A stretch of 33,322 nucleotides of DNA from Planctomycetaceae bacterium (GTDB lineage Bacteria > Planctomycetota > Planctomycetia > Pirellulales > Pirellulaceae), in assembly GCA_005798335.1 (NCBI GenBank), contig SYJV01000229.1, positions 1-33,322 of the forward strand, read 5' to 3'. How positions within the stretch are numbered: the stretch's first letter is position 1; each line of letters begins with the position of its first letter. A program made the translations under genes and the position numbers. The notes beneath the pieces are model-generated. The model ran no database searches and was not told the origin of the DNA. It worked only from the letters and a program-made list of their open reading frames with translations. Below, piece after piece: positions 10,975 to 33,322 of the stretch.

Positions 10975-11098
10975 GGCGAGCGGCAGAATGGTTCTTACTA
11001 TTACAAGCCCGAAGCGCGAGCGAGTGCGTACGTGCCAGGATTGACCCACTCGCTTGCGCATCGGGCTTGTATTGGTGAGAATCATTCTGCCGCTCGCC
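10975..11098. repeat. 52-bp-arm inverted repeat (foldback element, type 1)
   Basis: The left arm 10975-11026 and right arm 11047-11098 are 52 bases each, begin GGCGAGCGGCAGAATG and differ at only about six positions; the spacer is 20 bases. The inner part contains ACAAGCCCGA and GCGAGCGAGTG. From memory, a palindrome built on such 'AAGCCCGAAGCGCAAGCGAG' sequence is common between genes in Rhodopirellula-like genomes, but I could not check this. No flanking direct repeat is evident. The right end is shared with the target site of the adjoining 122-bp element. Confidence 0.85.
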
Positions 11099-11104
11099 TA
11101 GACG

Positions 11105-11226
11105 CAATACCGTTCAACGAACGTGGGATAAGCTTCCAGATTGTCAACCTGTAGCGGAGTTTCACCATTGCTTGCACAAGATATTGACAAGCTGGAAGCT
11201 TATCCCACGTTCGTTGAACGGTATTG
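11105..11226. mobile_element. 122-bp foldback (MITE-like) element, copy 1
   Basis: The element begins CAATACCGTTCAACG and ends with the complement. Its 43-base arms (11105-11147 and 11184-11226) match except at 11140 (A where the other full copy has C). The 36-base centre (11148-11183) is identical to copy 2. The ten bases on each side, CGCCTAGACG (11095-11104) and CGTCTAGGCG (11227-11236), are exact inverted complements of each other and match 8/10 as a direct repeat, so the palindrome visually extends to 53-base arms. No protein is encoded. Confidence 0.88.
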
Positions 11227-11256
11227 CGTCTAGGCGCACATCTGACAAACAGATCG

Positions 11257-21093: not shown

Positions 21094-21285
21094 GTTAATA
21101 AAGCGTCAATCGGAGCGCTGCTCTTGGGGAATTTTTAATCACTACGTTCTATGCTTTGTGGGACGTTTCTTCAAGCCTATTCCGCCGCACACAGCCCGAT
21201 CAACCGTATTCCACCCAGGGAGATTTTTCATAGAATGCACTGCGAATCCTTTTTCTGCTTGGACCAATCCAACTGGAGTCAATCT
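21094..21285. promoter_or_regulatory. Divergent promoter region of the Bat operon and the GlcG-like gene
   Basis: These 192 bases separate two divergent genes and so should hold the Bat operon promoter. No convincing sigma-70 pair or operator palindrome is visible. GGAG about nine bases before 21286 is the ribosome-binding site of the GlcG-like gene. Confidence 0.4.
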
Positions 21286-21771
21286 ATGAAATCTGCACCT
21301 ATTTTCGCGTTGGCCCTATTTGCTCTTACCGTTTCCTCACCATTTTCCTTTGCTCAGGAACCGACGCCTTACGGCGAGCCGATAGCGTTGGAGCAGGCCA
21401 AAAAAGTAATGAAAGCGGCGGAAGAGGAGGCCCGCAAACAGAAATGGCCTGTGGCGATCGCGATCGTCGATAGTTCTGGATTCTTGGTGATGTTCCAACG
21501 ACTCGAAAATACGCAACTTGGCAGTGTCGAAGTATCACTGGAAAAGGCCAAGACCGCAGCTTTGTTTCGACGCACCACCAAAGAACTAGAAGACCGCCTA
21601 GTGGCTGGCGGAGCAAACTTGAAAGTTCTGCGTCTGCCAGGCCTACCTATCGAAGGCGGCATTCCAATCGTCGTCAACGGAAAAATAATCGGCGCTATAG
21701 GCGTCTCTGGTGTCCAGTCAACCCAAGATGCGCAAGTCGCCTCGGCGGGTATCAAGGCCTTAGTGCCTTAA
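21286..21771 (+). CDS. GlcG/HbpS family heme-binding-like protein, secreted
   Basis: The ATG at 21286 follows GGAG and begins a normal signal peptide (residues 1-22, cleavage after SFAQ-like FSFAQ). Upstream in-frame codons to 21151 add only unrelated sequence. The 161-residue product has the GlcG/HbpS fold markers: LEQAKKVMKAAEEEARKQ helix, VAIAIVDSSGFLVMFQRLE, SLEKAKTAALFRRTT, PGLPIEGGIPI and GKIIGAIGVSG near the end. Members bind heme or corrinoid-like cofactors or have unknown small-ligand roles; the signal peptide puts this one outside the cytoplasm. The stop codon is inside the duplicated target site of a mobile element and remains intact. Convergent with the glycosyltransferase-like gene. 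Confidence 0.9.
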   Translation: MKSAPIFALALFALTVSSPFSFAQEPTPYGEPIALEQAKKVMKAAEEEARKQKWPVAIAIVDSSGFLVMFQRLENTQLGSVEVSLEKAKTAALFRRTTKELEDRLVAGGANLKVLRLPGLPIEGGIPIVVNGKIIGAIGVSGVQSTQDAQVASAGIKALVP

Positions 21772-21773
21772 CG
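21764..21773. repeat. Left 10-bp target-site duplication of foldback copy 2
   Basis: TGCCTTAACG abuts the left terminus of the element. It includes the TAA stop (21769-21771) of the GlcG-like gene. Confidence 0.88.
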
Positions 21774-21895
21774 CAATACCGTTCAACGAACGTGGGATAA
21801 GCTTCCAGCTTGTCAACCTGTAGCGGAGTTTCACCATTGCTTGCACAAGATATTGACAAGCTGGAAGCTTATCCCACGTTCGTTGAACGGTATTG
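21774..21895. mobile_element. 122-bp foldback (MITE-like) element, copy 2, with target-site duplication
   Basis: The 43-base arms (21774-21816 and 21853-21895) are perfect inverted complements with termini CAATACC/GGTATTG; the 36-base centre is 21817-21852. Pairing stops exactly where the direct repeats TGCCTTAACG (21764-21773 and 21896-21905) begin, which is what transposition by staggered cut and repair produces. It is 121/122 identical to copy 1 about 10.5 kb away. It encodes no protein. Lying between convergent genes, its hairpin could also end transcripts from both sides. Confidence 0.93.
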
Positions 21896-21905
21896 TGCCT
21901 TAACG
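21896..21905. repeat. Right 10-bp target-site duplication of foldback copy 2
   Basis: TGCCTTAACG, identical to the left flank at 21764-21773, directly follows the right terminus GGTATTG. Confidence 0.88.
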
Positions 21906-21942
21906 ATGGTCAGTTAAAAAAGTACTGAACAAGTGCGAATGA

Positions 21943-24135
21943 TTACAGTGGCTGGGTTGTGTTGACACTCAGCAAACTGTAGGTACTGCTGGACCAAAGG
22001 TCCTCCAGCCTGCCATCATTCAAACACGACTGAACGGCACTGTAAACGGGCCCCAATCGATTCCACCAATCTTCAGCTCGATCGGGCCCCAGAGATTTGT
22101 TGGCGATGACAAGGTGTGAAATCCGTCGGTTTGCCAGAAAACTATGGAGCGCTTCTGCGGTACCGAAGTGCTCTGGTGGTGTGAGCCCCGGCGCCTGAAA
22201 AAATGGAGTGCCGATGATGCAACACCGCGGAATGTACAAACTGCGGTTTTCAATCAACAGTAGAATTCGCGAGCCCGGAGAAGTGGCTTCGTCAATCTTT
22301 GTCGCCAGTTCAATGTACTCCTCGGTCAGCGAGTCATTCACCCAATCTGTACGGCTCCAAATTCCAAGATTCGTTTCCCAGGAGGCGAAATAGTAGCCAG
22401 CGTTTGCCCAAGGAAGGCTGACGATCGTCGAAACAACCAGCAACCATTCCACCAGCATTTTTGTGCGCCCAGCTAGGGACTTGATAGCCGCAGCACCTAA
22501 TACCACGACAACAACGAACAGTGGAATCGCCAAGCGTGATTGCTGAGCGGTGAGAAACCAAAATAGATACAGGATCAGGGCAGTTAACAACAAATGAGTC
22601 GGCCACGCCAGTTGGGAGTATGATACATTGATGGCTGAACGATTTCCGGTGGCAGGTCGGCTTGTTCGGTTGGGCATGCCGACTCGCCGACTCGGTCGAC
22701 CATGCGTTGCCGCGGCCAGCCAGCCGACTCGTATCGTCAGCCCGAGCAGTACTAGCCACTGCCAACCAATTCGACCATCAAAAAGCGCTTGATCCCAAGC
22801 CAAATAGATTGGCGAAAAAAGCAACGCAACGACTCCGCGCATGCCAAAGACGGACCCTCCAATCGCATGGTGATAATTGCTTGTTTCTAGCATTGCCGTA
22901 TTTGACGTAAACCACGCGGCAAAGAATGGGTAACACGGATTGCCTGCCAAAAACCATGGCCGCAAAAAAAATGGAGACGCGATCGCCACCATGGTTACCA
23001 CCAACATTGACGCCCTACACGAAATCAGAGGAATACTCCTGGTCGATGCGCTTAGGCCGCGCAATTTTCTTTGCTCATGCGTATCGACAAATTGTTTAGT
23101 GGCCAATTTGCCTCGCCGAGAGCCAGTCTTGGTGATTACGGGAACTTCCGGTGGTGAGATATTAGAATTCCATAATTCTGTCACCAACCATAACAAAGGA
23201 ATGACCACAAGAATCCCACCAGTCAATTTTGTCGCAGCAGCTCCACCAGCAATGATTCCGAGAATTATCAATGGACTCACACTCGAGCCACCCGCCCGCC
23301 ACTGCCGAGCCAAAGACCGCATGATGACTAACATAGCTGCGACGAATAACAGCAAGAAAACTTCGACGTAGCAATTCTGACTGATCATCAGCGAAGTCTG
23401 ACTCGCTCCAAGCGATAGCGTCAGTATCAATGCCGCGCGAGCATCTGAGACGTCTCGCGCGACGGTGTACAATAAGTATAAGCCGATGATCCAGATGCTC
23501 CAGGCAAGCAATCGCGACGTCACGAGAGACTCGATCGGAGCCGACATCCAGCATAGGATCTCTACTAACGACGGAAAGCCTGAGTAGGGCAAATCACCGT
23601 AGAACGCAGGCCAGCCATCAGCCATCCAAAGTCGCGGCAAAACTGAGTGGTAGACCAGTTCATCCCAGCCAGTTGGATAGTTCAATGCAGGCCCGAGTGT
23701 CAGCAATACACAAGGTGCAACGAGCAATAACCGCAACCTGGGTAGATCGGGAAAGTAGTAGCGCGAACCCGACGTACCAATCGGCTGCATTCGCACTTTC
23801 TTGGCTCGTTCTAACAGCCCAACGTGGATCGAGCGCACCGCCGATGCGAGGCCGTAAAGAGAAAACAGCGCCAAAGGCAACAACGAAAATGCGCCTGGCA
23901 GACCTGCCGTTGCACCAATGGTTACGCCGGAGAATGCAACAATTGTCAAGCCTGCGGCGGAATAGGCTAGTTCATATTCAAGGCCAGTGGGACAGGCGCT
24001 CTTCAGCCATCGCCTGAGCAATAACCCCGCTCCCCATGAGGCAATGAACAAGAATGCTACACCGACAATTGCCCAAGAAATCGAACCCATCGACTCAAGT
24101 GAAGGTAATCGTTCGATTCCTGCCATTGTCCTCAT
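21943..24135 (-). CDS. Polytopic membrane protein, GT-C-type glycosyltransferase-like
   Basis: The 730-residue protein has at least ten hydrophobic helices and a soluble C-terminal part of about 140 residues. The first large loop has PTGWDELVYHSVLPRL with an acidic pair (about residues 157-160), followed by GFPSLVEILCW; an acidic motif in the first loop is typical of GT-C enzymes (ArnT/PMT-like, dolichyl- or undecaprenyl-phosphate-sugar dependent). A basic loop near 330-365 is probably cytoplasmic. GTAGG lies about eight bases before the ATG; a second ATG is three codons in. It probably transfers sugar to an envelope component on the periplasmic side. Exact family is not certain; an unrelated polytopic protein is possible. 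Confidence 0.72.
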   Translation of the reverse strand: MRTMAGIERLPSLESMGSISWAIVGVAFLFIASWGAGLLLRRWLKSACPTGLEYELAYSAAGLTIVAFSGVTIGATAGLPGAFSLLPLALFSLYGLASAVRSIHVGLLERAKKVRMQPIGTSGSRYYFPDLPRLRLLLVAPCVLLTLGPALNYPTGWDELVYHSVLPRLWMADGWPAFYGDLPYSGFPSLVEILCWMSAPIESLVTSRLLAWSIWIIGLYLLYTVARDVSDARAALILTLSLGASQTSLMISQNCYVEVFLLLFVAAMLVIMRSLARQWRAGGSSVSPLIILGIIAGGAAATKLTGGILVVIPLLWLVTELWNSNISPPEVPVITKTGSRRGKLATKQFVDTHEQRKLRGLSASTRSIPLISCRASMLVVTMVAIASPFFLRPWFLAGNPCYPFFAAWFTSNTAMLETSNYHHAIGGSVFGMRGVVALLFSPIYLAWDQALFDGRIGWQWLVLLGLTIRVGWLAAATHGRPSRRVGMPNRTSRPATGNRSAINVSYSQLAWPTHLLLTALILYLFWFLTAQQSRLAIPLFVVVVVLGAAAIKSLAGRTKMLVEWLLVVSTIVSLPWANAGYYFASWETNLGIWSRTDWVNDSLTEEYIELATKIDEATSPGSRILLLIENRSLYIPRCCIIGTPFFQAPGLTPPEHFGTAEALHSFLANRRISHLVIANKSLGPDRAEDWWNRLGPVYSAVQSCLNDGRLEDLWSSSTYSLLSVNTTQPL

Positions 24136-33281: not shown

Positions 33282-33322
33282 CAATACCGTTCAGCGAACG
33301 TGGGATAAGCTTCCAGCTTGTC
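33282..33322. mobile_element. 122-bp foldback (MITE-like) element, copy 3, cut by window end
   Basis: The 41 bases from CAATACC to the window edge match the left arm of copy 2 except for G instead of A in TTCAGCG (33293). The centre and right arm lie outside. It starts 25 bases after the cytochrome gene's stop, again at the 3' side of a gene. Confidence 0.85.

Follow-up and report, generated by a model that had tools for sequence, protein, structure and literature searches.

The window, meaning the whole stretch of 33,322 nucleotides that was analysed, comes from a planctomycete draft assembly and carries a 122-bp element at 21774-21895, between an HbpS-like gene and a convergent gene (Table 1). 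The arms of this hairpin (21774-21816 and 21853-21895, 43 nt each) were 100% complementary with 36 nt between them, and the element was bounded on both sides by the direct repeat TGCCTTAACG. The coordinates, arm length, centre length and flanking repeat given in the initial annotation proved exact to the base; its phrase "122-bp perfect foldback" is right for the arms, which contain no mismatch, and wrong for the 36-base loop, which is not perfect. Folding of positions 21750-21920 yielded -97.7 kcal/mol compared with a mean of -39.9 kcal/mol for shuffled sequences (z -15.8), and 0 of 200 dinucleotide shuffles folded as well.

Table 1. Coordinates of the element, its parts, its neighbouring genes and its further copies in the window
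Feature	Position	Strand	Basis
HbpS-like gene (PF03928), stop codon in left duplication	21151-21771	+	ORF, Pfam
Left target-site duplication TGCCTTAACG, holds the TAA stop of the upstream gene	21764-21773	+	sequence; ORF end 21771
Left terminal inverted repeat CAATACCGTTCAACGAAC, IS4-type end, 18 bp	21774-21791	+	sequence, end comparison
Left REP unit GTGGGATAAGCTTCCAGCTTGTC: GTGG foot and 8-bp hairpin	21792-21814	+	sequence, REP comparison
Loop, 36 bases	21817-21852	+	sequence
Right REP unit, inverted	21855-21877	-	sequence, doublet test
Right terminal inverted repeat	21878-21895	-	sequence, end comparison
Right target-site duplication TGCCTTAACG	21896-21905	+	sequence
Convergent gene, weak PMT_2 similarity below Pfam cut-off	21943-24135	-	ORF, Pfam
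Second element copy; flanks CGCCTAGACG / CGTCTAGGCG, 8/10 direct, 10/10 inverted	11105-11226	+	terminus scan, arm pairing
Third element copy, ends at contig edge; left flank CGTTTAACCC	33282-33322	+	terminus scan

Inside the 18-bp end, each arm consists of GTGG followed by the hairpin GATAAGCT-TCC-AGCTTGTC with an 8-bp stem, and the two units are inverted relative to each other. A GT[AG]G motif at the hairpin foot is the anatomy of a REP unit in the available text of PMC6006769, and the core of the element has what defines a REPIN, namely two inverted units, each with a GTRG foot and a hairpin. The initial annotation had read the element as a MITE, which holds, and had overlooked the REP unit in the inner part of each arm and the separable REPIN that forms the core.

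Since the stop codon of the HbpS-like gene lies inside the left duplication, the insertion left the reading frame unchanged; the transcript of this gene would gain a strong hairpin. An integron attC site, considered because the element stands directly behind the stop codon, was ruled out on inspection, the flanks being direct repeats. When the plasmid collection was queried with the 142-bp element, a single record was returned, with an irrelevant 29-base match (E 5).

Copy number, flanking repeats and empty sites

Two further copies, which the initial annotation lacked, lie in the window, where the 19-base terminus occurred five times at ≤3 mismatches against 0.01 expected. In the draft assembly of the same genome (8.46 Mb, 558 contigs), the terminus was matched at ≤2 mismatches 180 times in forward and 171 times in reverse orientation, and a reversed-pattern control was matched 0 times. 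Because each complete copy contributes one forward and one reverse terminus, the number of copies in the genome, complete or partial, is at least about 180. No element reduced to its two ends was seen, with 0 pairs of termini 30-100 bp apart in 283 kb of loci from this genome. The element offers a practical explanation for some breaks in the planctomycete assembly; the window itself stops inside a copy. In a search of 60 genomes, 29 bases of the loop matched positions 1501-1529 of a locus (L043) from another planctomycete (90%, E 6e-4), which may be chance.

Within this large population, 69 of the 83 copies of 122 bp differed from the consensus at no more than two bases and 56 had perfect arms, while seven differed at 25-29 bases and were read as wrongly oriented in the comparison. 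Such near-identity suggests recent spread. It also bears on the view that the hairpin ceased to move long ago and now persists as an RNA or terminator element at the ends of genes, a view compatible with the explanation preferred below. The very stable hairpin and the position directly behind a stop codon and between convergent genes agree with such a role, but an Rfam scan of the window gave no family at its gathering threshold and the little-diverged copies fit recent spread, and we consider this view unlikely.

The flanks of the copies were then read in elements paired by script. From 99 pairs, two chance pairings with an upstream near-match (L004:1467 and L339:292) were subtracted, the true copies behind them being counted separately; the remaining 97 elements are a subset of the at least about 180, picked by listing order and score and not at random, and 94 of them had 10 bp on both sides. 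An exact 10-bp duplication was found in 62 of these 94 copies, with a match at 9/10 in six more; one copy had an exact 9-bp duplication and none was exact at 11-13 bp. The 32 copies without an exact 10-bp duplication count against the MITE reading; five of the non-exact rows are copies with flanks GTCGTTGCAG/GGGTTAAACG, which appear to be repeated copies of a single nested arrangement. The target consensus was palindromic, CGYYTARRCG. In two of the 94 copies (window 11095-11236 and L338 391-532), the flanks were perfect 10-bp inverted repeats matching 8/10 in direct orientation, possibly through hairpin-templated correction of a quasi-palindromic duplication. Beside the first of these, a 55-nt inverted repeat (GGCGAGCGGCAGAATGG...) at 10975-11098 stops at the left flank of the second copy, and relatives of this repeat elsewhere in the genome host other copies.

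A search of the other 14 genomes of the genus with the gene upstream of the insertion at 21774 gave no match at E 1e-20, so that an orthologous empty site could not be read. Many copies lie inside other repeats, however, and unoccupied copies of these host repeats could therefore be used as empty-site controls. The joined flanks of one copy (C28) matched C63 at 98.2% over 110 bp, where the sequence runs without interruption through a single CGTTTAACCC; those of a copy in C63 matched C93 (L078) at 95.5% over 110 bp, and those of a copy in C302 matched C52 and C25 at 95.6% over 68 bp with a 2-base gap. The target is thus present once at paralogous empty sites. Together with the 62 exact duplications among 94 copies and the copy number, these sites uphold the earlier proposal of a MITE with a 10-bp duplication, for which the flanks of other copies had been named as a check. 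Other hairpins adjoined the insertions in 14 of 139 flanks, compared with 0 of 137 for sequence 280-390 bp away (one threshold set), and insertion beside hairpins is a possible route by which palindromes become enclosed.

Full-length relatives and the search for a transposase

A scan of contigs from many genomes with a variant terminus returned at least 114 stretches. Among the matches listed, Intrasporangium calvum (L156) carries a 1467-bp element with the ends CAATACCGTTCAGTTAGG / CAATACCGTTCAATTAAG and the duplication GGGCTAGCCC; its transposase contains Nterm_IS4 (PF13006) and DDE_Tnp_1 (PF01609) and lies above the cut-off of NF033592, its reading frame being apparently shifted near the end. 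Also among the matches listed, a right end of this type stands at a Planctomycetota locus (L157) next to a transposase that is 41% identical to that of L156 and above the DDE_Tnp_1 cut-off; the left part falls outside the available stretch, and the comparison concerns the right end only. Two plasmid elements annotated as IS4 family, one of ISBvi1 type (L397) and one from Rhodococcus (L398), have exact 10-bp duplications (CGGCTAGACA and ACTTTAAGGT, respectively) and ends with 4-5 mismatches in 18, and a third plasmid element (L396) has one recognisable end only. Flanks equal at 9/10 were found for a 1740-bp element with ends CAATACTGT in a genome of the window's family (G017), the agreement recorded for the full-length element L246.

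The end of the window element was identical to the right end of L156 at 15 of 18 positions, and the right end of E. coli IS4, TAATGCCGATCAGTTAAG, was identical to that of L156, CAATACCGTTCAATTAAG, at 14 of 18; the E. coli IS4 copy compared had a flanking repeat longer than 10 bp. The element has IS4-group inverted repeats, a duplication of like length and full-length relatives that encode IS4-family transposases, which together place it as an IS4-family MITE. The hint at IS4 in the initial annotation, which had advised a search for an insertion sequence with like termini, is thereby strengthened, L156, L397 and L398 all bearing such ends and exact 10-bp duplications.

In the genome of the window, the L157 protein had 0 matches at E 1e-10, and none of five DDE_Tnp_1 matches was an IS4-group gene bounded by these ends. 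A partial gene at a contig end (L031) was of the IS4_1 type above the NCBIfam cut-off, with no such end seen nearby. An autonomous partner was thus not found in this genome; a MITE does not strictly require one, and because the assembly is a draft the partner may be missing from it. With no transposase bearing these ends found in the genome, movement would be in trans, in agreement with the initial annotation.

Other candidates were set aside. The only one of the five DDE_Tnp_1 matches beside a terminus (C54) is a Tn5-type protein inside an element copy and was ruled out as the mobiliser; the transposases of L032 and L033 have other ends and other duplications, and a 1699-bp element between two termini (G020) is a MITE copy with a Tn5-type transposase gene inside.

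Two further families were encountered. The first of them, Tn5-like and with ends CTTnTTATACCCCACATCTT, uses the site GCTTCCAGC within the REP for insertion and duplicates 9 bp there (L061 471-797), and eight 131-bp copies with a 9-bp tandem duplication at GCTTCCAGC resemble excision footprints (L062, L276, L287, L309, L318, L328, L344 and L059:3289). At L059 1-1748, two partial MITE copies flank a Tn5-type transposase gene with mutually inverted junctions, through recombination or as an assembly chimera. A larger element with ends TGGACAGCGCCA, which appears to represent a third MITE-like family, contains five nested copies, all at one position (L080, L298, L309, L311 and L318).

Cores and ends as separable parts

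Twelve element families were compared, with one chosen representative each (for R. sallentina, the sequence of L204 and L388). Their ends were 92.6% identical on average (minimum 82%), and their cores were mostly unrelated; among all core pairs, only two cores shared an exact stretch of ≥12 bases. Strict inverted GTRG-hairpin doublets were found in five of the 12 families, two of these five coming from one genome (Prado165), compared with a mean of 0.02 and a maximum of 1 for shuffled cores in 300 trials. The other seven failed the strict test, and some of their cores are another kind of palindrome: the cores of KLAP7 and g7 (GTAGTGGACGAGG...) and that of Kuenenia resemble REPs by eye, with one side or both failing the strict rule, and the R. 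sallentina, Loclat, Verrucomicrobia and BS150m cores are palindromic to varying degree and are not REP doublets. In CALLUY, stand-alone doublets of its own core REP occur (L116, L142 and L187), with 6 of 42 units outside the ends; no unit lay outside the ends at the SJ293, KLAP7, Prado165 and Kuenenia loci, which are small samples around the elements themselves. Across Pirellulaceae and some other bacteria, one type of end is combined with palindromic cores that are unrelated to each other, several of them clear REP doublets.

Three loci from Akkermansiaceae/Verrucomicrobia (L163, L158 and L177) have the same ends around a GCAGAT-rich core, with 11-bp GC-rich flanking repeats that are exact in L163 and have one mismatch in L158 and L177. 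At L381 (G138) 208-721, four termini in the same orientation are spaced at 167 bp with no opposite terminus, as a tandem array with one element end.

These comparisons bear on the possibility that the element is an ordinary internally deleted IS4 derivative, its palindromic middle inherited from the parent insertion sequence and its REP likeness incidental. IS4 ends and 10-bp duplications suffice for a MITE, more than half of the families fail the strict REP-doublet test, and of five full-length IS4-type elements (IS4, L156, L246, L397 and L398) one, L156, has a single GTRG hairpin within the outermost 100 bp at one end. This single match corresponds to the shuffled rate, however, and no inverted GTRG doublet occurred in the first and last 100 bp of any of the five. 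The cores differ wholly between most genomes while the ends remain alike, and the REP or its paired variant exists without the ends in six congeners, as do stand-alone REPINs in the genome of the window. An internally deleted derivative is accordingly an improbable account of the element.

The occurrence of the REP apart from the ends was read within one genus (15 genomes), with a pattern covering the REP and its G-C paired variant; since the pattern omits units with an A before them at the third base, its counts are lower bounds. In relatives the REP occurs singly and in tandem without CAATACC ends, and both stem sides have changed together (AAGCT/AGCTT versus AGGCT/AGCCT). The exact REP of the window was present in G001, G002 and G011, in G002 partly as tandem units, and a paired variant or mixed form in G010, G012 and G013; none of the six had a terminus at ≤2 mismatches. 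In G003 and G004, also of this genus, the ends enclose other palindromes, with no match to the REP pattern of the window. The genome of the window itself contains at least 11 strict REP matches outside a MITE context, five of which were read: L227 and L233 are complete stand-alone REP doublets without ends, L244 is a single unit, and in L241 and L237 the REP precedes a unit that was judged by eye to be degenerate, inverted in L241 and oriented like the REP in L237. The L233 loop aligned with the MITE loop at a score of 34, the best of 2000 shuffles scoring 32; in principle, L233 could also have arisen from an element through erosion of its ends. REPINs thus exist outside the MITE, both for this core (L227 and L233) and for the core of CALLUY.

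The direction might also be the reverse, the dispersed REP units being debris of the MITE and not its source, and the terminus-bearing copies in this genome do far exceed the REP units that were matched strictly apart from the MITE (at least 11). Against this stand the six congeners that carry the REP or its paired variant with no terminus match, one of them partly in tandem, the other REP families found between the same ends in other genomes, and the stand-alone CALLUY doublets, and we regard a debris origin as very unlikely.

Movement of the whole unit by a tyrosine (HUH) transposase of the RAYT or TIRYT type, with the outer 18 bp as an extension of the REPIN, is highly improbable: the element contains REP units, 17 Y1_Tnp matches occur in the genome, and the available text of PMC3733652 describes tyrosine transposase genes between long inverted repeats and, in R. 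baltica, many such genes with repeats at their flanks, but the ends are those of IS4 transposons, 10-bp duplications are exact in most readable copies where IS200/IS605-type enzymes make no larger target duplications according to the accessible part of PMC2817692, and the REP of the window occurs within 5 mismatches at 0 of the 17 Y1_Tnp loci, some of which are clipped by contig ends. The best REP match near a Y1_Tnp gene has 6 mismatches and lies ~1.5 kb away (L066), and no cognate RAYT for the REPIN core was found among these 17 loci. Because a REPIN makes no target duplication, the 10-bp duplications keep the element as a whole from being filed as one. Four Y1_Tnp loci of this genome (L064, L065, L067 and L077) lie near GTAG-hairpin units of other REP families.

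Proposed mechanism and related systems

The element is very probably a non-autonomous MITE of the IS4 family (IS4 group) with a REPIN as cargo, and such ends have probably captured different REPINs several times. In this model, recognition of the 18-bp ends CAATACCGTTCAACGAAC by an IS4-type DDE transposase, supplied in trans, would lead to excision of the element by cut-and-paste and to its reinsertion at palindromic CGYYTARRCG-like sites, where a 10-bp stagger would be duplicated. The REPIN cargo makes up most of the long hairpin, and its two inverted REP units belong to the class of repeats on which RAYT (HUH) transposases act. REPINs would have been captured repeatedly between minimal IS4 ends, entering through RAYT insertion or through rearrangement at palindromic targets, and would then have spread by the IS4 route. 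The sequence data show the anatomy, the duplications, the copy number, the paralogous empty sites, IS4 transposases with such ends, the exchange of cores and REP or REPIN copies apart from the ends; continuing transposition, the identity of the transposase in this genome and the entry of the REPIN by RAYT insertion or another route are inferred.

As a MITE the element is ordinary, and its composition is unusual. Among the small mobile DNAs of bacteria, MITEs and REPINs are usually kept apart as classes that depend on unrelated enzymes; IS4 ends enclosing REPINs that differ from genome to genome suggest recombination between these classes, and suggest also that a REPIN can gain copies via the ends of a DDE transposon. 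We tentatively propose, as a possibility that falls short of an even chance, that Pirellulaceae REPINs have repeatedly exchanged RAYT/HUH single-strand transposition for IS4 DDE cut-and-paste through capture, the core perhaps being selected as helpful. The hairpin core may be selected because, for instance, an extruded cruciform would bring the ends together, or because one element can serve both transposases. The element provides a directly testable case of whether hairpin cores aid cut-and-paste transposition.

REPINs, RAYTs and TIR-flanked tyrosine transposases, many of them in R. baltica, are treated in PMC3116915, PMC3733652, PMC6006769, PMC2817692 and PMC3189936, and in the available portions of the open-licence literature we found no description of IS4 ends around REPINs. 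With the IS4 group (E. coli IS4 and ISBvi1-type elements) the window element shares ends of the same type, and with the full-length IS4-type elements L156, L397 and L398 it shares 10-bp duplications with a YTAR centre. It differs from the IS4 group in having no transposase gene, in its REPIN core and in that no autonomous partner was seen in its own genome, and it differs from E. coli IS4 in that its end is identical to the IS4 right end at only 11 of 18 positions.

As in REPINs or BIMEs (RAYT-associated REP doublets), as far as the available text of PMC6006769 and PMC3116915 describes them, the element has a GTGG foot, a short hairpin and two inverted units. Unlike these, it is bounded by IS4-type ends and a 10-bp duplication, and no RAYT gene was seen near the REP family of the window in its own genome. 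NEMIS and RUP are bacterial MITEs. Like bacterial MITEs in the accessible parts of PMC3733652 and PMC2817692, and like MITEAba12 in that of PMC6382973, the element is short and non-coding and has terminal inverted repeats; unlike NEMIS, RUP and MITEAba12, it encloses as its core a second family of mobile repeats, and this core is exchanged from genome to genome. A further parallel is the P. gingivalis MITE with an internal minisatellite, which also holds another class of repeat inside a MITE; in the available text of PMC4596501 that insert is a tandem repeat, whereas the insert of the window element is a mobile palindromic doublet.
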